Shown one piece after another: positions 27,830 through 41,045 of a DNA stretch of 64,000 bases; within the stretch, counting starts at the first letter, position 1, and the number at the start of each line of letters is the position of its first letter. Made by a program: the position numbers and the translations under genes. The stretch covers positions 124,001 through 188,000 of the forward strand of contig NZ_AP023057.1 in assembly GCF_016629565.1 (NCBI RefSeq). The letters are read 5' to 3'. This DNA comes from Nitratiruptor sp. YY08-10 (GTDB taxonomy: Bacteria; Campylobacterota; Campylobacteria; Campylobacterales; Nitratiruptoraceae). The notes under the pieces are model-generated. The model did no database searches, was not told the origin of the DNA, and worked only from the letters and a program-made list of their open reading frames with translations.

Positions 27830-28690
27830 GTGAAAAAGATCTTTTGCGCTACCCTCGATGGAGTAGACGCAAAAGTAGTGGAAGTGGAGAGTTCCTTTAT
27901 TCGGGCTCTTCCTGCATTATCGATCGTCGGTCTTGCATCGAGTGCTATACAGGAAGCAAAAGATCGTGTCAAATCGGCACTTTTGGCAAACAACTTCTCT
28001 TTTCCTCCTCAAAAGATAACGATCAACCTAGCTCCCAGTGATCTCAAAAAGAATGGAAGTCATTTCGATTTGGCAATTGCTCTTGGGATTGCGCTGCAAA
28101 AAGAAGATGTTGATTTTGAAGACTATTTTGTCTTTGGGGAGCTTGGGCTCGATGGAGCAGTGAAAGATACAATGATGATCTTTCCTCTCGTTTTATCACT
28201 AGCTAAAAAACCTGTAAAAGTTGTCATACCTCTGGAGAGCTTGCCAAAAGTGCAAAAGATTCCAAATATCGACATTGTCGCGGTACAAACACTTTCGGAA
28301 GCGATTGCATTTTTTAAAACAAAAGAAGCCCCTTCGCATCAGCCGATTCCATTCTCTTTTCCCCATTTTGAAATGGATGGTGAAAAGTACTATTATAACC
28401 CTTCATACCCTCTTGATTTTTCAGAGGTCAAAGGGCAGGAAGTGGCTAAAAGAGCCGCTTTAATCGCTGCTGCTGGATGTCATAATCTGCTTATGGAAGG
28501 AAGTCCTGGTTGTGGCAAGAGCATGATAGCAAAAAGGCTTCGGTATATTTTGCCACCAATGAGTATGCAAGAGATTTTGGATATGGCCAAAATGGAGGCT
28601 TTGGATGGAAAAGAGCCAAGTTTTACGCCGCTACGATCGTACCGGTCGCCCCATCACTCCTCCACGAAAGCCAGCATCTTTGGTGGAGGG
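27830..28690 (+). pseudogene. comM: comM, 5' part, split by the transposon
   Basis: The first 287 codons (GTG start) of the YifB/ComM Mg-chelatase-like AAA+ helicase: an N-terminal Lon-protease-like domain, then Walker A GSPGCGKS at residues 224-231 and the RSPHHSS motif, broken at IFGGG. Joining 28690 to 40410 restores a continuous 498-codon frame. ComM drives branch migration in natural transformation, so this insertion should remove the activity. The truncated frame runs on into the transposon end and stops at 28822, two bases before the TnsE-like ATG. Confidence 0.93.
28686..28690. repeat. Target-site duplication GAGGG, left copy
   Basis: GAGGG abuts the TGT end of the element and recurs at 40405-40409 next to the ACA end. 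The 5-bp length is standard for Tn7-like transposons. Confidence 0.9.
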
Positions 28691-28765
28691 TGTGAATTTC
28701 CAAATATAATTGGACTTTTTCAAAGTTATTTTGACTTTTTCCAAAAATATTTAGACTCCTTAAAA
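28691..28765. repeat. Transposon left end: inverted repeat and three TnsB-like sites
   Basis: The 25-bp terminal repeat (28691-28715) leads into three related sites spaced 20-21 bp: AATTGGACTTTTTCAAAG, TTTTGACTTTTTCCAAAA and TTTAGACTCCTTAAAA, with their GAC cores at 28713, 28733 and 28754. They are inverted relative to the GTCCAA sites at the right end. Tn7 likewise has three TnsB sites at its left end. Confidence 0.8.
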
Positions 28766-28824
28766 TTTGGTTTTACTTCTTCATTCTTCCATAAAACCCG
28801 TTATTCCTTTTTGAGGATTTAGTC

Positions 28825-30369
28825 ATGATCAATGATGTTGTCAAGCTATTAAAGAAAGAGAACGAAGCCGTTGCCGATATGCAAAACAACCGTCCTCTAA
28901 TCGTTATGGGCAATTCTCCATTCAAAATCTATATTAAAGGTAAATATAAAAGCCAGGTATTGACGAATATAGTTTTTTATGACGAAAAGTACGATACGAA
29001 ACGCTATGCGAGAAACATTCAGCTGGAAACTCTTAATATTTTTCAGCCAAACTCTGTTCTTTATAAAGGAAACTTGACATATTACGGAGAGATGAAAAAT
29101 TTTGCCATTGATCTTGAAATGGCAAATAAAGAAGCCTATCGGTTTGATTCTCTGGATAAAGATCTTCAAATGAAGATTTTAAAGACGCTGGCTGCTAGCA
29201 AATGGGATTATTTCCGTATCATCGAGAGTGAAAATATAAAAATAATCATCCCCGCCTATTCGATAGGAAACTTCTTTTATTATCCCAATTCTTATATCAA
29301 AAGGGCTTTTTTCGCTCAAAGTATGGCGGAGACTCTGGTAAATGAAGGACTGTCGGAATGCGAAGAGGGAGCGATATGCTTTGCCTATGGAGTCAAATTT
29401 ACCAAAATCAATGTGATACTCTCTTATTTTTACCACTGTGATCCCAGAGCTTCAGCCTATTTCTATAACGCTTTCTCCTATTTTATGAAAGAACCTGTCA
29501 AAAAATATTATGAAAACGGCTTGCGATCCACGGAGTCGGATTACATTTTACAAAATCCGAAATTCGCGTTTCCTCTTGTAAGCCGAAAAGAAAACGTGAC
29601 GGATGTTTTGTTCAGGGGAGCGTATTTGGATGAAAAGACATTTCTGGTTTACGAGATAGTAGATGTTGATTTCAAAAGTTTACTGGGAAAAGAGAAACTG
29701 ATCGGATTCTACGAGGGAAAGAAAAAAGCGAAAACCGTTACAACTAGTGGGTTTTCTCATGGGAAAGCGGACACGAAAAGTATTTCCAATACTGCCCCGT
29801 ATAACTTCAAGTTTGAACGGGGAGACAAGGCCTTTGCGGAGAGGGGGAAAGAGAGTATAGACGAGCTGATAGTTGAAAAAGGAAAGGCCGTATGCAGAGG
29901 AGAGGCGCTATACAGGATTCCCGTAAAACAGTCTTTTGAAGTGAGTGAAGGAATAAGTCTCGGCGAAGTGAGAGATCCGAATTCCAGATATGCTAAAGGG
30001 CGTATCTACAAGCTTTCGTTTGATTTCAAAGAGGCGATGAGATTGTTGGAACGCCGTTTAGGAATTTCAGGAAAGTTGATAGACGAACGGGAATTTTACG
30101 GATTTCTGTTTTGGTGGAATCGAAGAAACTATTTTGTTTTGGAACTGAAAAACTTTAATGCTCAAACATATTTGTTTAGTTCAAACAGAGGAATCGAATT
30201 TAAAAAAGTAGCTAACGAGATATTGTCGATTAGGAAAATGGAAACAGGCAAAAATCTTAAAGAATATAGAAAGGAGTTGCAAGGATTAGGTATTCATTTT
30301 CATACGCCACAAAAGCATACAGGAGAAAGTTTGGAGAAATGGGTGGAGAGGCTTATCGGGAAGATATAA
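28825..30369 (+). CDS. TnsE-like transposition protein (candidate)
   Basis: 514 residues. It resembles Tn7 TnsE in size and in several places: a central IIIPAYSIGNFFYYPNSYIKRAFF block comparable to the IPxxExARxLFxxNSYxxR segment of TnsE, a VYEIVDVDFKSLL block, and a C-terminal NYFVLELKNFNAQTYLFSS followed by a final HTPQ...ESLEKWVERLIGKI like the HPKG...EGWAERV tail of TnsE. TnsE directs Tn7 to replicating DNA through the sliding clamp. Here it lies alone at the left end, opposite tnsABC-tniQ. GAGGA precedes the ATG, and the comM' frame stops 2 nt before it. Identification is by remembered motifs, so moderate. Confidence 0.55.
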   Translation: MINDVVKLLKKENEAVADMQNNRPLIVMGNSPFKIYIKGKYKSQVLTNIVFYDEKYDTKRYARNIQLETLNIFQPNSVLYKGNLTYYGEMKNFAIDLEMANKEAYRFDSLDKDLQMKILKTLAASKWDYFRIIESENIKIIIPAYSIGNFFYYPNSYIKRAFFAQSMAETLVNEGLSECEEGAICFAYGVKFTKINVILSYFYHCDPRASAYFYNAFSYFMKEPVKKYYENGLRSTESDYILQNPKFAFPLVSRKENVTDVLFRGAYLDEKTFLVYEIVDVDFKSLLGKEKLIGFYEGKKKAKTVTTSGFSHGKADTKSISNTAPYNFKFERGDKAFAERGKESIDELIVEKGKAVCRGEALYRIPVKQSFEVSEGISLGEVRDPNSRYAKGRIYKLSFDFKEAMRLLERRLGISGKLIDEREFYGFLFWWNRRNYFVLELKNFNAQTYLFSSNRGIEFKKVANEILSIRKMETGKNLKEYRKELQGLGIHFHTPQKHTGESLEKWVERLIGKI

Positions 30370-30407
30370 AAACCTAAAACCGCGAAAAATAACAGCAAGG
30401 AGATGCT

Positions 30408-31802
30408 ATGGAGGAGTATAAAGCAAAATGGAAACAGTTGCTTACAAAGAAACGTCTCGAAGAAGAAAAAGAGTATCGGGAATCGGACAGTGAGAAGTTC
30501 AGAACCGAGTTTGATAAAGATTTTGACCGTATAATTTTTTCTACTGCTTTTCGAAGACTGGGTAGAAAAACCCAGGTGCACCCTCTCGCTACAAACGATC
30601 ACGTTCATACCAGACTGACGCATTCGCTCGAAGTCGCTTCGGTCGGTAGAACCCTCGGAACGAAACTCGGATTTTTCCTACAAGAAAGGAACGAGCTTCC
30701 AGAAAACCTTGTTCCTCAAGATGTGGGTACGGTAGTTCAGGCCGCGTGTCTATCCCACGATATCGGGAATCCTCCATTTGGACACGCCGGAGAGTACGCA
30801 ATTAGACATTGGTTTGAAAGAGATGGCCAGGAAGTTTTAAACAAAGTATTTCCGAATAAAGAGACGTTGACCGATGAGCAGAAAAAAGATTTTCTTATGT
30901 TCGAAGGCAACGCGCAGGGGTTTCGTATAGTTACCAGATTGGAAAATTATTTAAATGAAGGGGGACTGAGACTTACTTACGCGACTCTCGGAACTTTAAT
31001 CAAATATCCATGGGATTCCTCGTTTGCGGACGAGAACAAGCATGAAAAATTTAATGTTTTTCAATCAGAAAAAGAGTATTTCGTAAGAATTTTCGAGGAT
31101 ATGGGCTTAAAAAACGGAGAAAAGTTTTCTAGGCATCCGCTCTCTTATCTAATGGAGGCTTCGGATGATATATGCTATAAAATTCTTGATCTCGAAGATG
31201 CGGTAGAGCTGGGGATAGTAGATTTCGATACGGTAAAACAGCTTCTCGAAAAAATTATATCGGAATATGAAACAATATCGGAAGGAAAAGTGTCGGATGT
31301 GAATGTAAGCGATATCGGAGAAAATTACGAATACAGAAGAAGGATAGGAAAATACAGGGCGAAAGCTATAAACGCTCTTGTCAATATGATTTTTGATGTT
31401 TTTAAAGAAAATTACGATTCCATAATGAAAGGAGATTTCGAAGGAGATCTTTTTCGGACACTAAAGGAAAAAAACAAGAACTTAAGTAATATCATGTCAG
31501 ATATAGATGATTTGACCAACAGCAATGTATTTGCAGAAAGAAAAAAGGTCGAAGTAGAAATCGGATCGTATGAGATCATAGGAAAAATTCTGAAAGAATT
31601 GGCCGAAGCTGTAGCGGATATGAAACAAAACGGTGAGAATATATCTTTTAAAAGTGAAAGATTGCTGAAACTGATAGGAAAAGAGCAGCCGGTGGAAAAA
31701 GACAGCTATTACGAATGTCTCATGAAAATAACCGATTTTGTGTCCGGTATGACGGATAATTTTGCACTTGATATTTCAAAGAAACTCGATGGGATATTTT
31801 AG
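30408..31802 (+). CDS. dgt: dGTP triphosphohydrolase-like HD protein
   Basis: 464 residues. The N-terminal FRTEFDKDFDRIIFSTAFRRLGRKTQVHPL and the HD motifs TRLTHSLEVA (His72) and LSHDIGNPPFGHAGE (His117-Asp118) are those of dGTPases, which cut dNTPs to nucleoside and triphosphate. Relatives act against phages by draining dGTP. Its place among restriction genes in a transposon favours a defence role, though metabolic dgt genes look alike. Ribosome-binding site AAGGAG; 38 nt after the TnsE-like gene. Confidence 0.88.
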   Translation: MEEYKAKWKQLLTKKRLEEEKEYRESDSEKFRTEFDKDFDRIIFSTAFRRLGRKTQVHPLATNDHVHTRLTHSLEVASVGRTLGTKLGFFLQERNELPENLVPQDVGTVVQAACLSHDIGNPPFGHAGEYAIRHWFERDGQEVLNKVFPNKETLTDEQKKDFLMFEGNAQGFRIVTRLENYLNEGGLRLTYATLGTLIKYPWDSSFADENKHEKFNVFQSEKEYFVRIFEDMGLKNGEKFSRHPLSYLMEASDDICYKILDLEDAVELGIVDFDTVKQLLEKIISEYETISEGKVSDVNVSDIGENYEYRRRIGKYRAKAINALVNMIFDVFKENYDSIMKGDFEGDLFRTLKEKNKNLSNIMSDIDDLTNSNVFAERKKVEVEIGSYEIIGKILKELAEAVADMKQNGENISFKSERLLKLIGKEQPVEKDSYYECLMKITDFVSGMTDNFALDISKKLDGIF

Positions 31803-31835
31803 CAGTAAAAGCGGAAAATTTAACTAATAATATTT

Positions 31836-31841
31836 TATAAT
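31836..31841 (+). promoter_or_regulatory. Possible -10 before the restriction endonuclease gene
   Basis: TATAAT in ATATTTTATAATACAG, 22 bp before the ATG at 31864 in the 61-bp gap after dgt; no clear -35. Confidence 0.4.
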
Positions 31842-31863
31842 ACAGATAGTCTGAGGAGGATTT

Positions 31864-33015
31864 ATGTTTTACGATAAGCAGGACGAAAAAAACAAACGTA
31901 TTTATAAGCTTTATCTGAAAGCATCCGCATCGCTTTCGAGACTGTTTTCGGACTCCGAAATACCGTTTCTGCACTACAGAGCAGCTGAGAATATTTTTTG
32001 TTTTGCGTTTGATGCAGAAAATTTAGCAAGAGACGATATAGCTGTAGATGCAAAAAAAGACATGCTTGGCATAGGAATAAAAACATTTCTTCATAACGGT
32101 GGAAATACTCTTCAAAAAATTGCCGAATTCAATAGACTTAGGAGCGAGTTCGAAAATAAATCCCCCGGCGAAATAGCATTAAAAGCAGCTGAACTGCGAA
32201 ATTACCGCCTTGATGTTGCAAAAGAGCTTCATGGGCTGGAAAATTTTATTTATCACTGTATAACCAGAGAGGCCGGTCGGCTAAATATTGTAGAAGAAAA
32301 TATGGACTATATAAATTTGGAGCATATCAGCGATATCAGAAGAAGCAGAAATACAGTTTTGTTTACTGACGGTATCAATGAATATTCTTTCAGTCTTTCC
32401 AAACATACGCTTTTTAAAAGATTTACCGCAAACAATATCATGGATACAGTAGATGTTGAAATTATCGAAAATCCTTTTGAGATGTTGGCGGACTGTATCC
32501 CGAAAGGCAGAAATATCGAAGAATCCGAGATTGGAAAGACACAACCGGTATACCGAAAAAAGTATATTTATCTTCCTCTTTACGCTCCATCCGATCCGAA
32601 TATGCATCCTGCGCTGAAAAGCGGACTCAATCAGTGGAATGCCGGTGGAAGAGAAAGGCATTCCGATGAAGTCTATATACCTGTGCCTGCATGGATTCAT
32701 AAAGTTTTTCCTGATTTTTTTCCGAAAAGCAACAAAACAGTTTTCAGTCTGCATCTTCCCAATGGAAAAGTTTTAAAAGCGTCTATGTGTCAGCAGGGCA
32801 GAAAAGGACTTATGAGCAATCCGAATAAAGCTTTGGGCAGATGGCTTTTAAGGGATGTGCTCAGGCTGCCAGAAGGTACGCTTGTAACTAGGAAAGTACT
32901 TGATGCTTCGGGTATAGATTCGGTTAGAGTGGAGAAGATAGGAGAATATGAATATAAGATTGACTTTGCATCGACCGGTTCCTATGAAAAGTTTAAGAGT
33001 ACTTTTGAGCAATGA
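31864..33015 (+). CDS. Type II restriction endonuclease with C-terminal B3-like DNA-binding domain
   Basis: 383 residues. The C-terminal ~115 residues (DEVYIPVPAWIHKVFPDFFP ... LPNGKVLKASMCQQGRKGLMSNPNKALGRWLLRDVL) match the B3-type recognition domain of NgoFVII/BfiI-like restriction enzymes. The N-terminal domain lacks a phospholipase-D HxK motif; instead AENIFCFAF, VDAKKDMLGIGIKTFL and KIAEFN suggest a PD-(D/E)XK-like nuclease with Glu42, Asp62 and Lys73 as candidate active residues (inference). It overlaps the next gene by 4 nt. The methyltransferase at 34132-35235 is the likely partner. GAGGAGG ribosome-binding site. Confidence 0.75.
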   Translation: MFYDKQDEKNKRIYKLYLKASASLSRLFSDSEIPFLHYRAAENIFCFAFDAENLARDDIAVDAKKDMLGIGIKTFLHNGGNTLQKIAEFNRLRSEFENKSPGEIALKAAELRNYRLDVAKELHGLENFIYHCITREAGRLNIVEENMDYINLEHISDIRRSRNTVLFTDGINEYSFSLSKHTLFKRFTANNIMDTVDVEIIENPFEMLADCIPKGRNIEESEIGKTQPVYRKKYIYLPLYAPSDPNMHPALKSGLNQWNAGGRERHSDEVYIPVPAWIHKVFPDFFPKSNKTVFSLHLPNGKVLKASMCQQGRKGLMSNPNKALGRWLLRDVLRLPEGTLVTRKVLDASGIDSVRVEKIGEYEYKIDFASTGSYEKFKSTFEQ

Positions 33016-33734
33016 GTCTGATATTTGTAAAACAGTGTATATGTGTATATATTTCTGATAAGTGTCGCAAGGAATTTAAGCCTAATATCGAGATCGCTGA
33101 CAAAGATAAAGAGAAGTGCTTAATGTTTGCCCGGAATATGGCATATGGAGAAAAACATAATCCGAAATCGTTCGGCTCTGCTGAAAAAAATTACATAAGA
33201 GAGAAACAGGAGATTTTCAGGGACGCTTTTCAGGGCAAGCTTGCAGAAATTGCATTTTACAATTATTATGTAAAAAGAGGTTTTAGTTTAAATAAACCAG
33301 ATTTCAGTGAATGGAACCGGGGAAAATGGGAAGATACGGATTTTACTGCCGAATTTAATAACAAAGAATACAGAATCAGTATTAAATCTACTAAATATTT
33401 CGGCAATCTCCTGCTTCTTGAAAAAGACAGATATAACGAACAGGGACTATATATAGAAACAGCCGATGATCAAACAAAAGGAGTAAAATACGACCTTATA
33501 TTCCTTGTCAGAATAAAAGGTGTTGACGGCTCTAACCCTAATGTTTACGATAAAAAAAAACTTAGCGCTATAGAAGCGGAAATTACGGGTTTTATAACGC
33601 ATGAAGAATTTAAAAAAGCTATAAAAAGCGGAAAATATCTGGCGAAAGGATGGCTGATAAACGGGAAAGAAAAATTGAAAGTCGATAACTATTATTTCTG
33701 CGCAAATGAACTGAAAAGGCCTGCCGATGGTTAA
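33012..33734 (+). CDS. Nuclease-like protein of the restriction cluster
   Basis: 240 residues, no family recognised with certainty. EIFRDAFQGKLAEIAFYNYYVKRG, then WEDTDFTAEFNNKEYRISIKSTKYFGNLLLLEKDRY, has the shape of a PD-(D/E)XK core: Glu79, Asp108/Asp110 and Lys125, with Ser replacing the usual acidic residue two before the Lys. It starts at an ATGA overlap with the B3 endonuclease and overlaps vsr by 8 nt, so all three are translated as a unit. It may be a second subunit of the endonuclease or a separate restriction enzyme sharing the methylase. The first ~35 residues look unusual; an internal ATG at 33124 is an alternative. Confidence 0.6.
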   Translation: MSLIFVKQCICVYISDKCRKEFKPNIEIADKDKEKCLMFARNMAYGEKHNPKSFGSAEKNYIREKQEIFRDAFQGKLAEIAFYNYYVKRGFSLNKPDFSEWNRGKWEDTDFTAEFNNKEYRISIKSTKYFGNLLLLEKDRYNEQGLYIETADDQTKGVKYDLIFLVRIKGVDGSNPNVYDKKKLSAIEAEITGFITHEEFKKAIKSGKYLAKGWLINGKEKLKVDNYYFCANELKRPADG

Positions 33735-34140
33735 AAAAAAGAAACAGCCGGTAACACGGTCTGAAAATATGAGAAGAATCAGATCTAAAGACACAACAAT
33801 TGAAAAAATCCTCAGAAAGACTCTCTGGAGCAGAGGTTTGAGATACAGAAAAAATTGTCCGGATGTTTTCGGGAAACCGGATATATGTTTTAAAAAAAAG
33901 AAGGTTGCTGTTTTCTGTGACAGTGAGTTTTGGCACGGCAAATATTTTATGGAAGGCAAAGTGCCGAAGAGCAATCAGGATTACTGGATACCCAAAATAA
34001 AGAGAAATATTGAGCGCGATAAAGAGGTTAATGCAAGACTCCGTAAAGAAGGCTGGAAGGTGCTAAGGTTCTGGGGGAAAGACATAGCTAAAAACCCAGA
34101 AAAAATAGCAGATATAATTGAAGATGTCCTTTCAGATTAG
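33727..34140 (+). CDS. vsr: Very-short-patch-repair-type endonuclease
   Basis: 137 residues with the Vsr pattern: TRSENMRRIRSKDTTIEKILRKTLWSRGLRYRKN, the catalytic Asp52 in FGKPDICF, then VAVFCDSEFWHGKYF with His70, and GWKVLRFWGKDI. Vsr nicks T:G mismatches left by deamination of 5-methylcytosine, so it fits the C5 methyltransferase beside it. The CDSEFWHG version lacks the extra Cys/His zinc ligands of E. coli Vsr. It overlaps the previous gene by 8 nt and the convergent methylase by 9 nt. Confidence 0.87.
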   Translation: MVKKKKQPVTRSENMRRIRSKDTTIEKILRKTLWSRGLRYRKNCPDVFGKPDICFKKKKVAVFCDSEFWHGKYFMEGKVPKSNQDYWIPKIKRNIERDKEVNARLRKEGWKVLRFWGKDIAKNPEKIADIIEDVLSD

Positions 34141-35235
34141 GGACTTAAATTTTTTTGTTTCCGGATCATATTCCGGAAGACATTCTTCAGGGCTATATTC
34201 TGGTACTATTCCGTCAAGAACGTTTTCTATTCTTTTGGCAAACGGATATATGCCTGCCGGAGGTACCGCATTGCCTATCTGTCTTCTTGCCTCTGTATTA
34301 TTCCCGCAAAAAATAAAATCATCCGGAAAACCCTGCAGCCTTGCCCTTTCTCTGTTTGTAAGAGGCCTCGGCTCTTCATAATGATAGCCCCATGTGCCTC
34401 CTCCTCCAGATGCAATTACAGTATATGCGGGTTTCTTTCTGTGAAGCCTGCGGTAGATATTGGACATTAATCCTTTAACAGCAAATTCTGTATTTTCAAC
34501 ATCTTTGTAGTTTCCTCCTTCCGGGATTAGTTTTAGTCTTTCTTCCACTTCTTTTGAAATTTTCATCCGGTTATTATTGTGGCAGTGTTCAGGAATATTT
34601 TTGAAAGCTTCGGCACAAGACACATATGTGTCCTTTGTGTGAGTCGGAACTGGAGGAATAAAAGGTATTGTTATATCTTTTCGAATTCCTATAAACAGCA
34701 CCCGTTCTCTTATCTGCGGTATACCGAAATCTGCGAAATTGACGAGAAATATTTTTAGATTATATCCGTCAATTTCGAATCTGTTTTTTATAATTTTTAT
34801 GGCTTCCCCTTTGTTTGCCGAAAGAATTCCTTTTACATTTTCAGCTAGAAATACTTTTGGACGGAGTATTTCAAGATATCTTGCAAAACTTTCGTAAAGT
34901 TTTCCGTTTTTATCGTCTTTTATGCCGGCTCTTTTGCCGACAATAGAAAATGTAACACAGGGAAAACCGCCTAGAAGAACATCGTAATCTTCATTTGCAT
35001 ACTGTTTTGGATCCGTTTCATTTATATCTTTGTTTATTACTTCCGTTTGAGAAAAGTATTTTGTATTAGTTTTTAGCGTTTTGCAGGCAAATTTATCTAT
35101 CTCTATTGCTTTTGCCGTATAAAATTTTAATCTGGGATATTCCCTGTTCAGATAGCTGAATCCGCCGTGGAAACCGAGATCCAGACCGCCTGCACCTGTG
35201 AATGTTGAAAAGATTTTATATATATGCTTTTCCAT
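34132..35235 (-). CDS. dcm: DNA (cytosine-5) methyltransferase
   Basis: 367 residues with the C5-methylase motifs in order: I FSTFTGAGGLDLGF (SAM binding), IV GGFPCVTFS with nucleophile Cys93, VI AENVKGI, VIII REKVLF-like IRERVLFIGIRK, IX ERARLQGFP and X IGNAVPP. It marks cytosine in the recognition site of the restriction enzyme(s) at 31864-33734; the site cannot be read from sequence. It is divergent from the small DUF6471 gene across a symmetric promoter region. Confidence 0.92.
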   Translation of the reverse strand: MEKHIYKIFSTFTGAGGLDLGFHGGFSYLNREYPRLKFYTAKAIEIDKFACKTLKTNTKYFSQTEVINKDINETDPKQYANEDYDVLLGGFPCVTFSIVGKRAGIKDDKNGKLYESFARYLEILRPKVFLAENVKGILSANKGEAIKIIKNRFEIDGYNLKIFLVNFADFGIPQIRERVLFIGIRKDITIPFIPPVPTHTKDTYVSCAEAFKNIPEHCHNNNRMKISKEVEERLKLIPEGGNYKDVENTEFAVKGLMSNIYRRLHRKKPAYTVIASGGGGTWGYHYEEPRPLTNRERARLQGFPDDFIFCGNNTEARRQIGNAVPPAGIYPFAKRIENVLDGIVPEYSPEECLPEYDPETKKFKSLI

Positions 35236-35270
35236 TATTGCTTACCTTGTATTGTATTATTTATGTTCTA

Positions 35271-35366
35271 ATTGTAACATATATGCTGCATATTGTCAAT
35301 TTTTTAAAAACAGATTTATCAATCATCAGAACAAATTTGATATATTATGCATATTTTTGTTACAAT
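35271..35366. promoter_or_regulatory. Symmetric divergent promoter region for dcm and the DUF6471 gene
   Basis: ATTGTAACATATATG at 35271-35285 and an inverted, imperfect copy CATATTTTTGTTACAAT ending at 35366. Each outer half contains TACAAT pointing outward: 35271-35276 reads toward dcm, 35361-35366 toward the small gene. The symmetry suggests that one protein could bind both halves and control methylase expression. Confidence 0.5.
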
Positions 35367-35403
35367 TGTTTTAAAAATGAATTTTAATGCTAAAGTAGGG
35401 AAG

Positions 35404-35631
35404 ATGAAAGAAAAAGCAAAAAATTTGCTAAAAAGCGAGCTTGTAAAAAGAGGATTAAAATATTCCGATCTTGCATTTCTTATGAAACAAAAACAGTATA
35501 ATGAAAATGCGGATGCAATAAGGACAAAAATAAACAGAGGTACTTTTTCGTTCGAATTTTTTTTAAAAGTTCTTGATGCTATGGATGCGGAGCTTATTGT
35601 AAAAGACAAAGATAAAAAAGATCCTGGTTAA
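35404..35631 (+). CDS. DUF6471 helix-turn-helix-like small protein
   Basis: 75 residues from ATG 35404, chosen because TAGGG sits 4-8 nt before it and homology begins there; an upstream frame start at 35347 lies inside the promoter region. KNLLKSELVKRGLKYSDLAFLMKQ ... ADAIRTKINRGTFSFEFFLKVLDAMDAELI matches the DUF6471 family, which looks like a DNA-binding XRE-type fold. Its place, divergent from a methylase, is that of a restriction-modification controller protein (inference). Confidence 0.7.
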   Translation: MKEKAKNLLKSELVKRGLKYSDLAFLMKQKQYNENADAIRTKINRGTFSFEFFLKVLDAMDAELIVKDKDKKDPG

Positions 35632-35729
35632 TATCAGTAAATTTGTGTGGATGATTTATTGGGAGACTGTATAAAAAATATACTTTCTAATATATTATAT
35701 TCAAAAGAAGTAAAAATATTTTGACTTAA

Positions 35730-36938
35730 TTACATTAGAGTAGCAAGTTCCGGTCTTTTTCTTTTTTCTAGTACAATCCCTAATAACCTCGACAGAGTTG
35801 AATAAGAAGGCTCTATTCCATTTTTTTTCATCCAAGAACAAGCATTTTTAGCTTCCTCAATAGTTACTAGATGGGGCTGTTTTTTATGAATCCATGTTGC
35901 TGTTTCGTACCAGTAGGGAGTATAGTTCAAATCTCTTTTGAGAATAGAATATGAAATTTTGTTTGATGTGATAAACCGTTTTAAATTTTTAGGAGAAGAA
36001 AGAATGGAAATAGAGGCCGTAAAGACTGCAAATGCTTCTTTGGGAGAAATGATTTCTTCTAAAAACTTTCCTCTGAGTTCACTTGTATTTTTGAGTTCAA
36101 GATTGTGCAGTTCAATCTCTTTTTTCAAAATTTCCCACTTTCTATAGTCTAAAAGATATATGAGTTTTGCTATATGTTTTAAAATACGGAAGTAGAAAGG
36201 AGAATAATACCATTTGCCGTTGTATGTAAAATATCCTCTACGTAGTATATTAGTCGCCTCTGAAAGATAATGTATGCCCTCTGAATTGTGATGGATTTTT
36301 TCCGTTTCGGCTTCTTTATAGATGAATCCGCAATTCCAGCAGTTGAAAGATTCTACATCCAACTTTCTTTTTACCAAAAATATCGGCTCCCCGCATTGTG
36401 GACATTCGTTTATGAGAAAGTTTTCATGTTTTAGACAAACCGTATAGAAGCTTAATCTCCACTCTTTTCTGAAATATTCCTGTTCTTGCAGACATTGCGG
36501 ACAATATCTTAGTCCTTTTATACGTGGATAGCTTCCTCTTACTTTTACCGGTGTTATAAGGTGGTTTCTGGTTTTAGGATCTATTGTTTCATTTAGATAA
36601 CCGCTGTAGCTTTGCAATGAGGTATTAAAAACATCGTTTTCATCCAGTAACATTCGCTTTGCAAAATTGTTGGCTATCTCTTTATCGACAAAAATATCCG
36701 TATCTCTATTCAAAAATTTGTTTTTATATTCCGGAAAATAGCAATTTATGAAAGTAGGTGTTTGTAAAAAATTTATTGTTGCGTTTCTCGCTATCCAGGA
36801 GGTAAAAAGTTCGTTTGGATACGGCTTGACTCTGTTTTTGATTACGGTTTTTGCCAATTTTTCTTTAAATTTTTTATCCCTGTAGACTATTTTAAAAAGA
36901 TATCCTTTTTCAGGATGAAACTTAGATTTCGTCGGCAT
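35730..36938 (-). CDS. tniQ: TniQ/TnsD-family target-selection protein
   Basis: 402 residues from ATG 36938 (AGAAGG ribosome-binding site); the frame runs up to 36971 but that start has less support. The N-terminal PYPNELFTSWIARNA segment is the TniQ signature. Zinc-finger ligands are Cys146/149 (RYCPQC), Cys168-His171, Cys179/182 (ECPQCG) and Cys200/203 (CWNCG). TniQ/TnsD proteins recognise the attachment site and recruit TnsC. This is the best candidate for reading the comM sequence. It starts inside tnsC (17-nt overlap). Confidence 0.85.
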   Translation of the reverse strand: MPTKSKFHPEKGYLFKIVYRDKKFKEKLAKTVIKNRVKPYPNELFTSWIARNATINFLQTPTFINCYFPEYKNKFLNRDTDIFVDKEIANNFAKRMLLDENDVFNTSLQSYSGYLNETIDPKTRNHLITPVKVRGSYPRIKGLRYCPQCLQEQEYFRKEWRLSFYTVCLKHENFLINECPQCGEPIFLVKRKLDVESFNCWNCGFIYKEAETEKIHHNSEGIHYLSEATNILRRGYFTYNGKWYYSPFYFRILKHIAKLIYLLDYRKWEILKKEIELHNLELKNTSELRGKFLEEIISPKEAFAVFTASISILSSPKNLKRFITSNKISYSILKRDLNYTPYWYETATWIHKKQPHLVTIEEAKNACSWMKKNGIEPSYSTLSRLLGIVLEKRKRPELATLM

Positions 36939-37830
36939 AGATAACGCCTTCTCTGTCATACGCGGGGACATACTCTATTTCTTTGAGCATTTTTTTGTCT
37001 ATCTTTTCTTTTCCGCTCTCAATTGCTTCAATAGCCAAGAGTTCGCATATAGTGACAATATCTCCGATTAGTCCGTCGCTGAGTTCCAGGATCTCTTTGG
37101 CGAGACTCTCGTTTTCGTAAATGAGAGAAGGTTTTTTTAAAGGAAGTGTCATCTCGATTGCGTAAAGTAAAGAGAGATAATCTTCGTCAAATGTCCATTT
37201 TTTGATTTTTGTCGGTACGAATCTGCTTTTTAGCTGATGATCGGAGCTTACGAGGCTTACCCCTTTGGGAGTTCCTACTAAAACTATAGGGATTTTCAGA
37301 ATATTGGAGAGGTTTTTTATTCCGTTCATAAATTCCATCTGTTTGGTTATGCTTCCGATTAGTGCACCCTGAATTTCGTCTATAATGATCATTCGAACCT
37401 GATTGACTTCGCAATAATGCTTTATTTTGTTCTCTCTTTCGCTTATCGGTTCGTCTTTTCGGTAAGGAACCACGAAAAACTGGAACATTTTGTTGTAAAG
37501 ATCGTGCAGATCGGCTCTGTTTGGTGCCTGAATCAGCATCACGTGTTCGAAAAAGAGCATTTCGTCGTCGTTTTTATATACGTTCATCTCGTAAAATTTC
37601 TTTACCATTGCGGTTTTTCCATTGTTTGAATCTCCAACAAGGAGAAAGGATCTTATCCTGTCTTTTTTCGGTTCGTTCATCAGATCTGTAAGTTTTTTAA
37701 ACAGTTTGAGTGCTTTGGGGTGTCTGATGAATTTTGGTTTTTTAATAAATTCGATCCTCTCTTTTTTACCGCATTCCAATATTTTCCTGGTCTTTTCCGG
37801 AAGTTCGCCAAGATATTCTTTTCGAGTCAT
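36922..37830 (-). CDS. tnsC: TnsC/TniB-type AAA+ transposition regulator
   Basis: 302 residues with Walker A GDSNNGKT (66-73) and Walker B MIIIDE (Asp151-Glu152), followed by a sensor region FVPTKIKKW. Its small size and the GDSNNGKT loop are like TniB of Tn5053/Tn402 more than the 555-residue TnsC of Tn7. The protein forms ATP-dependent filaments that link target selector and transposase. AAAGGA precedes the ATG; it is 10 nt after tnsB. Confidence 0.9.
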   Translation of the reverse strand: MTRKEYLGELPEKTRKILECGKKERIEFIKKPKFIRHPKALKLFKKLTDLMNEPKKDRIRSFLLVGDSNNGKTAMVKKFYEMNVYKNDDEMLFFEHVMLIQAPNRADLHDLYNKMFQFFVVPYRKDEPISERENKIKHYCEVNQVRMIIIDEIQGALIGSITKQMEFMNGIKNLSNILKIPIVLVGTPKGVSLVSSDHQLKSRFVPTKIKKWTFDEDYLSLLYAIEMTLPLKKPSLIYENESLAKEILELSDGLIGDIVTICELLAIEAIESGKEKIDKKMLKEIEYVPAYDREGVIYADEI

Positions 37831-37840
37831 GCTATATCCT

Positions 37841-39667
37841 TTAGTCTTCGAAATCTATATCGAATTTTTTTATTTTCGGTTTGGCTGTGCCAGAAACTGG
37901 TTTTCTCGTATTCTGTTGCTCCTTATTTGACAAAGGAGACCGTATCTTTCTGTTCTCTTTTTTTCTTCTGGCCTGCTTTGTTTTTTTTGAGGCTTCCTCT
38001 TCTCTTTTTCTTAATCTTAGTATGGCATCGTATACCATTTCGTTGTGTATCTCTCTTTGTCTGTATCTCTTGGTTTCTTTCGCAACGGTATCCAGTTCCC
38101 ATTTCGTAGGAGGGGGATAAAGCTTTTTAACGCCGGGTATTTCTATGTACTCCCGTAAATCGGGATGATAGAAATAAATTTGGTTTAAATCTTTAGGATC
38201 GTACCGGAATATATATTTGTCGTTGCTTTTCGGTTTAATAAACACCGACAGAGCTTCATCATAATATCTAAGTTTAAAAAGGGAAACCCCCTGTTTCGTT
38301 ATTTTTCTTTCCTCGAAAGGAAGAAGAGAAATTCTTGCGAATTTTTTCTCTTCGGTGCTGTCGAGAATTCTTATCGGTACGGGAAGACCGTTTTCTCCTC
38401 TTAATCCTTCGGAGAACTTTTCTTCGGGAGTCATGCCGTTCAATCCGTTGTGGGGAGTCTTGTGATAGACATTAACTATCCATTCGGCGATATAGCTTTC
38501 GAGCTCTTTCAGGGTAAATACCGCTTTTTTCTCCGATTTATAGTCTCCTCTTTCGTGGGGATTGGAAAACGTGGTTCCGCTTAGCGAATGGACTTGCATA
38601 TTTATGGTTTTGATGATTCTTTCCACATGCCCCCCGAAAAAAGGCATGCCTTTCGGACGAAATTCGAGATTGATACCGAATATTTCACAGAAAGTTTTCA
38701 ATCCTCTGCTTCTAAACTCTTTTGCGTTGTCAACGTGAATGGTATCGGGAATACCGAATATATTCCATTCACCTTTTATGCCCACTTTTTGCAGATACTT
38801 TTCTTTCGGAAGCAGACCCATATAAAGAGTCTGTCCCACCGAATAGAGGCTTGGTGCGTCTAACGTAAGATAAAAGCCGTAGATCATTCTGCTGTAAACG
38901 TCCAGAGCCAGAGTCAAATACGGCCTCCCGATAGGTTTTCTGTATGTCTCGTCTACTATCTGCAAATCCAGAGGGGTGTGGTCAATCTGTATGACTTCGA
39001 GAGGACGGGATACCTCGAAAGAGTTGGCCGAGGGTTTTAGATTGTTAAGATACCTGTTTCTGCCCTCTCTGCTTTTGTATACGGTTCTTTCGTCTATCTG
39101 TTTTATGATTCGGTTGACGGTATTGTAAGAAACGGGTTCCAGTCCTTTTTTGTAAAGGATGGCGTTGATTTCTCTTGTAATTTGTGCAACGGTTATTTTT
39201 TGCCGTGAAAGATATCTATGCATAATTATCTCGTCGATTATTTTTTTCTGTTCTTTTCCGATTCTCGTTTTTCCTTTTCCGCCTCTTTTTTCATATTTTG
39301 GCATAAGAGCGAGTATGCTGTTTCCACTTTCGATATAGGCGTTGATCCAATTATAGAGTGTCTGTACGCAATATCCGTATTCTTTCGCTCTTTCTCTGAC
39401 CGCCTGTTTGCTTCTGGCTTGCAGCAGAGGTTTTATGATTTCAAGTCTTTTTAAAGCCGTTTGATAAAACTTGTCGTTCATACTCTCTGCGGGAGGCGGA
39501 TAACTTTGTTCTGTTCCTTGGTGTTCTTCGTCAAGTTCCGTGATATTTAAGATTTTGAAATTTCCTTTCGTATCTTTGCATACAATTTTGTCCAGATTCT
39601 CAAAACCTTCGATAATATACGGTTTTCCTTGATAAAACACCGTTTCGCCGGCTGCTAGTTTACGCAT
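37841..39667 (-). CDS. tnsB: TnsB/TniA-type DDE transposase
   Basis: 608 residues. N-terminal helix-turn-helix DNA-binding domains (about 70-200) precede an RNase-H-like integrase core with Asp229 (IQIDHT), Asp313 (IHVDNA) and Glu349 (GGHVERII), then a Mu-transposase-type beta-barrel and a lysine/arginine-rich C-terminal tail (about 555-600) that in Tn7 contacts TnsC. It cuts and joins the 3' ends of the element. It begins within the last codons of tnsA. Confidence 0.94.
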   Translation of the reverse strand: MRKLAAGETVFYQGKPYIIEGFENLDKIVCKDTKGNFKILNITELDEEHQGTEQSYPPPAESMNDKFYQTALKRLEIIKPLLQARSKQAVRERAKEYGYCVQTLYNWINAYIESGNSILALMPKYEKRGGKGKTRIGKEQKKIIDEIIMHRYLSRQKITVAQITREINAILYKKGLEPVSYNTVNRIIKQIDERTVYKSREGRNRYLNNLKPSANSFEVSRPLEVIQIDHTPLDLQIVDETYRKPIGRPYLTLALDVYSRMIYGFYLTLDAPSLYSVGQTLYMGLLPKEKYLQKVGIKGEWNIFGIPDTIHVDNAKEFRSRGLKTFCEIFGINLEFRPKGMPFFGGHVERIIKTINMQVHSLSGTTFSNPHERGDYKSEKKAVFTLKELESYIAEWIVNVYHKTPHNGLNGMTPEEKFSEGLRGENGLPVPIRILDSTEEKKFARISLLPFEERKITKQGVSLFKLRYYDEALSVFIKPKSNDKYIFRYDPKDLNQIYFYHPDLREYIEIPGVKKLYPPPTKWELDTVAKETKRYRQREIHNEMVYDAILRLRKREEEASKKTKQARRKKENRKIRSPLSNKEQQNTRKPVSGTAKPKIKKFDIDFED

Positions 39668-40238
39668 TGCCTATCCTTATTCTGGATTCGGGAGAGAGTT
39701 TTTTATACAGATTTGTTTGCATCCTGCCTTGAGCTATGAGGGCGTAAATATCCGAGGCGTTAAAACCGTATTCCAACAGTTTTGCTATATTGGTTTCTCC
39801 GATCCTGTCCACGTATGACAAAATTTTTTCGTCAGGTTTCAAAGTTATATAGCGATATATAAAAGAGAGGTTTGAAAAATAGGGTTCTTTAACGTCTTTT
39901 TCCGTAAATAGTCTAAACTTCCATCCGATGTTATTACAATATTTTTCAAGAACATCAAATTTTTTTGAGAGCTTTTTATCCGGATTTTCGGTTTCTTGAG
40001 AGTATTTAACCTCAATCAAAATGTATTGACCGTCTTTCGTTTTGGCAAGGATATCGGGTATATAGTTTTTGATTTTTAACGGTTGTTCCTCATAGGAGGC
40101 TATTTCTTCCTCAAATTCAAGCATCAGAAAGCATTTTTTCTCCAAAAGAGATTCATAAGCTGTTGATCGTCCGTTTTTATAACTGTAGAAATATCCTGAT
40201 TTTGAACGGGTTTGTATAGGAATTTTTCTAACCGGCAT
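39660..40238 (-). CDS. tnsA: TnsA endonuclease
   Basis: 192 residues. The PD-(D/E)XK nuclease core is visible: Glu29 (AYESLLE), Asp62 (YIPDIL) and Glu76-x-Lys78 (LIEVK). EEEIASYEEQPLKIKNYIPDI is the typical TnsA block. TnsA cuts the 5' ends of the element, making movement cut-and-paste rather than replicative. It is short compared with Tn7 TnsA (273 residues), with a reduced C-terminal domain. It starts 166 bp inside the right end, downstream of the TnsB-like sites, which in Tn7 repress this operon. Confidence 0.88.
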   Translation of the reverse strand: MPVRKIPIQTRSKSGYFYSYKNGRSTAYESLLEKKCFLMLEFEEEIASYEEQPLKIKNYIPDILAKTKDGQYILIEVKYSQETENPDKKLSKKFDVLEKYCNNIGWKFRLFTEKDVKEPYFSNLSFIYRYITLKPDEKILSYVDRIGETNIAKLLEYGFNASDIYALIAQGRMQTNLYKKLSPESRIRIGNA

Positions 40239-40259
40239 TCATGTTCCCTTAATAATGTT

Positions 40260-40404
40260 AGTCCAACTAATTATAGCAATTTTATATTTAGTCCAATTAA
40301 TTTAGTAAAAAAGTCCAAATAATTTTGGAAAATTTATTTTGATAAAATACCGTAATTACTTATTTATAGGATTTCAATGGTCAAATTATATTTGGAAACT
40401 TACA
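40260..40404. repeat. Transposon right end: four TnsB-like sites and inverted repeat
   Basis: AGTCCAACTAATTA (40260), AGTCCAATTAATTT (40290), AGTCCAAATAATTT (40312) and GGTCAAATTATATT (40379) are direct repeats leading into the terminal inverted repeat, which ends ACA at 40404. Four right-end sites against three left-end sites copies the asymmetry of Tn7. Confidence 0.8.
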
Positions 40405-40409
40405 GAGGG
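40405..40409. repeat. Target-site duplication GAGGG, right copy
   Basis: Matches 28686-28690. It lies between the ACA end and the AGCAGTGGAGC continuation of comM. Confidence 0.9.
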
Positions 40410-41045
40410 AGCAGTGGAGCAAGGCCTGGAGAAGTCGCCATGGCCCATAAAGGAATACTCTTTTTTGATGAATTTCCACATTTTGCAAAATCTGTTCTTG
40501 AGGCATTACGCGAACCCTTACAAGATCACAAAGTACTGATTTCGCGCGTACACAGCAAGGTGGAATATGAAACCACTTTTTTATTTGTTGCGGCGCAAAA
40601 TCCCTGTCCGTGCGGCAATCTGCTGGATAGCCAAAAAGAGTGCAGATGCACAGAACTTGAAATAAAACGCTATAAAAACAGACTTTCTGAGCCCCTTTTG
40701 GATCGAATCGATCTGTATGTGCAGATGGCGCCGATGCGAGCTGATGATAGCGCTACTTATACTTCGCAGCAGATGCATGAAATGGTTTTGCAGGCATTTT
40801 TGATGCAAAAAAGAAGAGGGCAACAGAGACTGAATGGAAAGCTTGAAGAAGAGGAAATAGAGACTTTTTGTCATTTAGATGATGAGGCGAAGAGGGTACT
40901 ATACCAAGCAAGGGAAAAGCTAGCTTTATCGCACCGTTCCATAGCCAATATCAAAAAAGTGGCTCGTACAATTGCTGATTTGGATCAAAAAGAGAGTATA
41001 GAAAAGAAGCATATTTTAGAGGCCCTCAGTTACAGAAGGCGCTAG
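40410..41045 (+). pseudogene. comM: comM, 3' part, split by the transposon
   Basis: Codons 288-498 of ComM: SSGARPGEVAMAHKGILFFDEFPHF with Walker B at restored residues 303-309, the Cys-rich AQNPCPCG...CRCTELE zinc region, arginine finger area DRIDLYVQM and the C-terminal helical domain. No lesion besides the insertion. An in-frame ATG at 40377, inside the transposon end and behind TATAGGA, could start a 222-residue C-terminal fragment (inference). Confidence 0.92.

Follow-up and report, generated by a model that had tools for sequence, protein, structure and literature searches.

A complete Tn7-like transposon without TnsF inside comM of Nitratiruptor sp. YY08-10

The window, i.e., the whole analyzed stretch of 64,000 nucleotides from Nitratiruptor sp. 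YY08-10, a deep-branching Campylobacterota bacterium, contains a complete and apparently intact Tn7-like transposon (28691-40404) located inside comM. The element and its flanks feature the following components, with the respective evidence in parentheses:

27830-28690, + strand: comM 5' fragment, codons 1-287, ending ..FGGG and reading on into the element (TIGR00368 YifB/ComM, 2.6e-67; empty site of G035)
28686-28690, + strand: target-site duplication GAGGG, left copy (sequence)
28691-28758, + strand: left end, the TGT terminus being followed by three TnsB-type repeats of ~20 nt at 28697-28758 (repeat search)
28825-30369, + strand: gene taken as a divergent tnsE, 514 aa (homologues match TnsE_C; fold match 9d5l)
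30408-31802, + strand: dGTP triphosphohydrolase, general type (NF002205, 2.5e-156, above cut-off)
31864-33015, + strand: type II restriction enzyme with NgoFVII-like C-terminal domain (PF20731, 4e-9; PADLOC REase_II, 3e-90)
33012-33734, + strand: 240-aa cargo protein, possibly a PD-(D/E)xK nuclease by motif only (motif inference)
33727-34140, + strand: Vsr mismatch endonuclease (PF03852, 2.9e-27)
34132-35235, - strand: C5-cytosine DNA methyltransferase (PF00145, 3.8e-73; MTase_II, 7e-105)
35347-35631, + strand: DUF6471 small protein (PF20075, 9e-20)
35730-36971, - strand: tniQ, tnsD-like target selector of 413 aa, extended at the N-terminus and with a helix-turn-helix at the C-terminus (PF06527, 1e-23)
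36922-37830, - strand: tnsC, TniB-type AAA+ ATPase (PF05621, 3e-52)
37841-39667, - strand: tnsB, DDE transposase with invariant D229/D313/E349 (PF09299, PF00665; alignment)
39660-40238, - strand: tnsA endonuclease (NF033179, 2.3e-16, below curated cut-off)
40261-40404, - strand: right end with ACA terminus and four TnsB-type repeats of 22 nt each (repeat search)
40405-40409, + strand: target-site duplication GAGGG, right copy (sequence)
40410-41045, + strand: comM 3' fragment (Walker B motif ILFFDE ~60 nt downstream of the insertion)

The termini (TGTGAATTTCC.../...GGAAACTTACA) are of the TGT...ACA type, 22 of 25 positions match between the terminal inverted repeats, and the GTCCAA/GTCAAA repeats of the right end lie at 40261-40282, 40291-40312, 40313-40334, and 40380-40401. 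Joining the flanks with one GAGGG restores a single 498-codon comM frame. The window genome contains only these two comM halves, and the gene is unbroken in most same-family genomes searched. An empty-site comparison set beforehand was carried out with a sister species of the same genus (G035), the comM of which lacks the element, has 706 identical positions in an ungapped 800-nt alignment spanning the junction, and shows a single GGTGGAGGA at the insertion point. Accordingly, what the sequence-only reading had claimed for the anatomy of this locus, i.e., a complete element in comM with GAGGG copies, matching ends, three left and four right GTCCAA-type sites, tnsABC-tniQ and an uninterrupted comM after removal of the element plus one GAGGG, was verified throughout. 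As a separate observation, the reading frame of the empty-site comM of G035 is broken at about codon 60 (C1:157845-158135). The classification as Tn7-like is given by the joint presence of a TnsB DDE transposase, a TnsC AAA+ protein, TniQ and TnsA, by ends of the TGT..ACA type containing multiple TnsB repeats of ~20 nt, by a 5-nt target duplication, and by a fixed attachment site common to independent insertions. The right end of Tn7 faces glmS; that of the window element faces the Walker B side of comM.

The minus-strand genes tnsA, tnsB, tnsC, and tniQ are all intact. For the structure model of TniQ (pLDDT 83.5; one plasmid-record row was left out of the alignment used), the best PDB fold match was TnsD (8v32_J, TnsD-TnsC-DNA complex), closely followed by guide-RNA-coupled TniQs with nearly as good matches, at modest TM-scores (0.34). 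Direct selectors of the TnsD type bind their attachment site in a sequence-specific manner, and the resemblance of TniQ to them is one of fold. The long gene at the left end, overlooked as tnsE by the sequence-only reading, has counterparts in the same place in the comM elements of G052 (36% identity) and G305 (26% identity). Its product has no direct family match of its own. Distant homologues, encoded at the left end of other comM elements and of dprA elements, match Pfam TnsE_C (PF18623) at 4.7e-5 and 4.7e-4, i.e., below the Pfam curated cut-off, and the best PDB fold match of the structure model (pLDDT 58 for the whole model, mostly 75-93 at the C-terminus) is the TnsE C-terminal domain 9d5l (prob 0.97, E 0.09). 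Due to the TnsE_C matches of the homologues and the fold of the C-terminus, the protein is taken as a divergent TnsE. TnsE directs Tn7 to conjugal plasmids (PMC11406308). The idea that the frame 28825-30366 encodes a new comM selector was rejected, since its homologues proved to be TnsE proteins and are also found in elements inserted elsewhere. Further TnsE homologues directly adjoin mnmG-like or argJ-like genes, named from sequence appearance, in G388, G255, G382, G288, and G341 (L101-L105, L107), which are probably additional attachment sites.

The sequence-only reading had described a restriction and dGTPase cargo serving defence. The restriction part stands, with C5 methylase, type II restriction enzyme and Vsr. 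The dGTPase reaches 521 bits against NF002205 (cut-off 439) and 203 bits against antiphage_dGTPase (cut-off 400), and judged by these scores it is not of the recognized anti-phage type. For the 240-aa protein, no family match was obtained in Pfam, PADLOC, or NCBIfam, and it is absent from the elements of G052 and G305. None of the six cargo genes recurs in the comM elements of these two genomes (tblastn).

Among 298 Campylobacterota genomes, 27 of which contain a TnsB relative, comM was found interrupted at one and the same codon in G000 (the window genome), G052, G072, G074, G125, G145, G153, G233, G242, and G275, with G305 added by a family search. Wherever both junctions were readable, the left and right 5-nt duplications agree (GCGGT, GAGGG, GGGGA, GTGGC, GAGGC, GGGGA, and GTGGA), all in one register except for G275, which is shifted by one nucleotide (AGGAA). 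This recurrence of the split with matching duplications in other Campylobacterota goes far beyond chance. G074 and G242 share identical element left ends, the G242 element being scattered over contigs, but their comM alleles and duplications differ (GTGGC and GAGGC), as expected of separate insertions. The diverged elements at this site in two genomes of the same family are 57% (G052) and 51% (G305) identical to the window in TnsB, and out of 11 element genes searched by tblastn only tnsA, tnsB, tnsC, tniQ, and tnsE recur in both. The agreement with Tn6022 turned out to be stronger than the same target gene claimed before, since the Acinetobacter baumannii element (NZ_CP104448) has its junction, GGGGGCGGT directly followed by TGTCAG, at the same nucleotide and in the same orientation, with the duplication GCGGT. 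A scan of named genomes revealed the same comM site for TnsF-bearing elements in Pasteurellaceae, Neisseria, Psychrobacter, and Methylobacter, and for elements without TnsF in Sulfurihydrogenibium, Geobacter, and Bacteroidota. Besides, comM elements without TnsF in Pseudoalteromonas, Marinomonas, and Planctobacterium (L145, L159, L165, L173, L190) are inserted in opposite orientation, 11-14 nt downstream.

Insertion of Tn6022 into comM requires TnsF, the proven comM selector (PMC10293859). No TnsF was detected by phmmer and HMM searches in the window element or in the whole genome of its host, with positive controls being recovered; this absence had also been missed by the sequence-only reading. 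The same result was obtained for the whole genomes of G305, G052, G074, G072, G145, and G275, and with none in these seven genomes and positive controls, a hidden TnsF was ruled out. Conversely, tnsF follows tniQ in G125 and G233, so that two of the 11 Campylobacterota genomes with a split comM feature TnsF and nine do not, making at least nine genomes of the phylum with a TnsF-less element at this codon. The annotated loci stem from the Campylobacterota genomes, the scan of named genomes and a single plasmid-collection record; among them, 22 comM insertions contain TnsF and 15 plus one rearranged lack it, the latter assignment being less sure for L180, L183, and L169, where the contig ends early. 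According to the alignment, the C-terminal helix-turn-helix of the window TniQ is missing from the TniQs of TnsF-bearing elements. The length of TniQ alone cannot explain independence from TnsF, since short TniQs without helix-turn-helix occur in a related TnsF-less comM group as well (313-321 aa in G074 and G145, 193-195 aa in G275 and L127). In a Thioalkalivibrio element (L177:12772-14763), TniQ and TnsF are fused in one 682-aa frame; such a fusion is also mentioned in PMC10293859. Regarding guide RNAs, the element revealed no CRISPR-like array, no Rfam match at gathering score and no match to comM of at least 15 nt, and it contains no cas genes, unlike the I-B1, I-F3, and V-K CASTs. RNA-guided targeting was ruled out by the lack of cas genes, array and comM-matching segment.

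With fairly good confidence, these findings point to a complete cut-and-paste element (TnsA plus TnsB) of a TnsF-less, comM-specific lineage, in which TniQ would act like TnsD in selecting comM and TnsE would provide a second pathway. TniQ is the likeliest selector because only tnsA, tnsB, tnsC, tniQ, and tnsE are common to the related elements and tnsE also occurs at other targets; as the sole selector it is put forward on the basis of sequence comparison and modeling. In a TnsD-like manner, TniQ would recognize the conserved stretch of comM that surrounds the GGG loop and Walker B, and would recruit TnsC, which in turn would position TnsAB for entry in one orientation directly after ..GGNGGN with 5 nt duplicated. 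The second pathway, presumably served by the left-end TnsE, would lead into plasmids; we infer this function as well as a present-day activity of the element. As ComM is a helicase assisting the integration of transforming DNA, the insertion, which splits the gene, should lower natural transformation of the host, while the element supplies type II restriction-modification and Vsr. Apparently, elements can reach this comM site by different protein routes.

Tn7-like elements of a related clade in Campylobacterota are located inside or next to dprA, another natural-transformation gene. Three insertions were resolved with their inverted repeats, and in each the joined frames give a continuous DprA:

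G029, C1:261417-284425: dprA-interrupting element, duplication TGATT
G249, C1:290421-311516: dprA-interrupting element, duplication ATACT
G275, C1:200631-214457: dprA-interrupting element, duplication TCCAA

In G239 (C8:271719-306839), both dprA halves are present and the junction was not resolved to a duplication, and at three Sulfuricurvum loci (L162, L172, L181) the 3' part of dprA lies on the tnsA side. G275 has two different Tn7-like elements, one interrupting comM (L087) and one interrupting dprA (L042). The competence genes listed as interrupted in PMC4774983 do not include dprA, and no dprA-targeting Tn7-like element was found in the literature, the supplementary tables of which may list some unremarked. 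On balance we lean, with odds somewhat better than even, towards the broader reading that TniQ alone selects comM where Tn6022 uses TnsF, so that the choice of this site would precede TnsF and not require it, and that Campylobacterota Tn7-like elements have repeatedly specialized on natural-transformation genes, namely comM and dprA, sometimes both in one genome as in G275.

Whether the disabling of natural transformation is itself a selected strategy of the element, i.e., an intragenomic conflict, or comM merely serves as a conserved safe site is evenly balanced. The second, related clade targeting dprA speaks for a conflict, as does the decrease of heterologous-DNA transformation by two orders of magnitude upon loss of comM (PMC11472951). 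Nevertheless, other relatives adjoin mnmG- or argJ-like genes, and some dprA elements and loci keep an intact extra dprA, as found for G249 (L193, C1:290000-293500) and two of the Sulfuricurvum loci (L172:19667-20323 and L181:20827-21468). In G249, the extra copy is part of the element itself, where it immediately follows tnsE, and is possibly a replacement. Accordingly, a loss of competence should not be assumed in these three cases.

In trees of both TnsB and TniQ, based on quick searches and featuring long branches, the window element groups with those of G052, G305, Sulfurihydrogenibium, and a Campylobacterales MAG (support 98-99), all of them inserted in comM and all without TnsF. The TnsF-bearing elements form a separate clade (support 100), which also reaches Campylobacterota (G125, G233). 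A single clade of all comM-targeting TniQs was rejected by the AU test (p=0.0008), and so was a grouping of the window with the TnsF clade (p=0.019); a grouping with the Arcobacter-type comM group was not (p=0.3). An independent convergence, in which recognition of the conserved GGG/Walker B region of comM arose anew in different TniQ lineages, would account for these rejections and comes just short of an even chance. It also agrees with the opposite orientation and downstream position of the Pseudoalteromonas-type insertions, and with type I-B1 CASTs, which reach comM via a guide RNA (PMC11406308). Still, elements with and without TnsF coincide to the nucleotide in their insertion point and have the same orientation, which would be expected of inherited targeting, and the most parsimonious history requires six changes between comM and other targets, a number compatible with gains or losses that does not tell the two apart. 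Thus, of the alternatives of an ancient comM-targeting lineage or convergence raised by the sequence-only reading, the separateness of the lineages is supported, whereas ancestral comM targeting with later losses may have produced the same pattern.

Alternatively, the lineage might have used TnsF and lost it after insertion, or might have been supplied with it in trans by another element, leaving the present copies stranded. The requirement of Tn6022 for TnsF (PMC10293859) and the occurrence of TnsF elements in other Campylobacterota are in line with this, and any single copy may have lost an inherited TnsF after insertion. As an explanation for the lineage it is unlikely, however, in view of the seven TnsF-free genomes with comM elements and the absence of TnsF throughout the window clade and from several others; moreover, the identical left ends of G074 and G242 in different comM alleles with matching duplications suggest recent insertion without TnsF. 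Selection of comM by TniQ together with a second element-encoded protein, most plausibly TnsE, is very improbable, for although tnsE is the only further gene besides tnsA, tnsB, tnsC, and tniQ common to the three Nitratiruptoraceae elements, its homologues also occur at dprA and beside mnmG-/argJ-like genes and hence do not track comM, and the TnsE of Tn7 acts on conjugal plasmids (PMC11406308). Selection by TniQ in a TnsF-less lineage is therefore retained as the preferred reading. No TnsF-less comM-targeting Tn7-like element was found in the literature, with the reservation that supplementary tables (e.g., Faure 2023 Data S1) may list some without comment.

The nearest named genome, G052, is Nitrosophilus labii HRV44 (Nitratiruptoraceae), which agrees with the Campylobacterota-like host proposed before. 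Its plasmid pHRV44 carries a tnsA-tniQ module with right end that is 94% identical to that of the window at the DNA level. The right end of this module lies within tnsB of a resident element, itself related to the G052 comM element, and the tniQ side and the cargo are closer to the resident element. The presence of the window-type element in two genera and on a plasmid implies transfer. The plasmid region (NZ_AP022827.1, 14566-49100) consists of nested, rearranged Tn7-like elements comprising the window-type right end with tnsA-tnsC and a second left-end/tnsE copy. As these copies are rearranged, the 5-mers flanking the outer element do not match.

Tn7 itself, with TnsABCD plus TnsE, moves by TnsA/TnsB cut-and-paste, has several TnsB sites per end and a 5-nt duplication, and targets a site downstream of glmS. 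The window element resembles it in the TnsA/TnsB set, TnsC, a TniQ with TnsD-like fold, the putative TnsE, multiple TnsB sites and duplication length, but is inserted inside comM, which is destroyed, and has one TniQ gene, with tnsE encoded on the other strand at the distant end. With the Acinetobacter elements Tn6022/AbaR it shares tnsABC-tniQ with tnsA adjoining the 3' part of comM, an oppositely oriented long gene at the left end that is interpreted as tnsE, and the comM nucleotide and orientation (duplication GCGGT, equal to ACCGC, vs. GAGGG); it differs in lacking TnsF, in TnsB (~36% identical) and in its clade in both trees. Elements of the Tn5053/Tn402 type are replicative, lack TnsA and target res sites, whereas the window element has TnsA and targets comM. 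The type I-B1 CAST likewise targets comM (PMC11406308) as attachment gene, with cas genes, CRISPR array and comM-matching spacer being absent here. Thus, a Tn7-like element in comM is of a known kind, and the lineage without TnsF is new. This separates the targeting of comM from the possession of TnsF, which are joined in the published model. Natural pairs of elements that share one insertion nucleotide and differ in the presence of TnsF, occurring even within the Campylobacterota, allow testing how Tn7 elements acquire or exchange a target selector, and dprA as second target in a related clade makes the idea of a shutdown of host transformation by mobile elements testable in non-pathogenic environmental bacteria.

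An unrelated recombinase also reaches comM in Tsy, a tyrosine-recombinase transposon with TnsF (PMC10293859), which shares the insertion in comM with the window element and has no TnsABC. Separately, in the comM element of G275, though not in its relative L127, a gene of tyrosine-recombinase-like appearance, judged from the sequence only, directly follows the 193-aa tniQ (L087:5722-6657).
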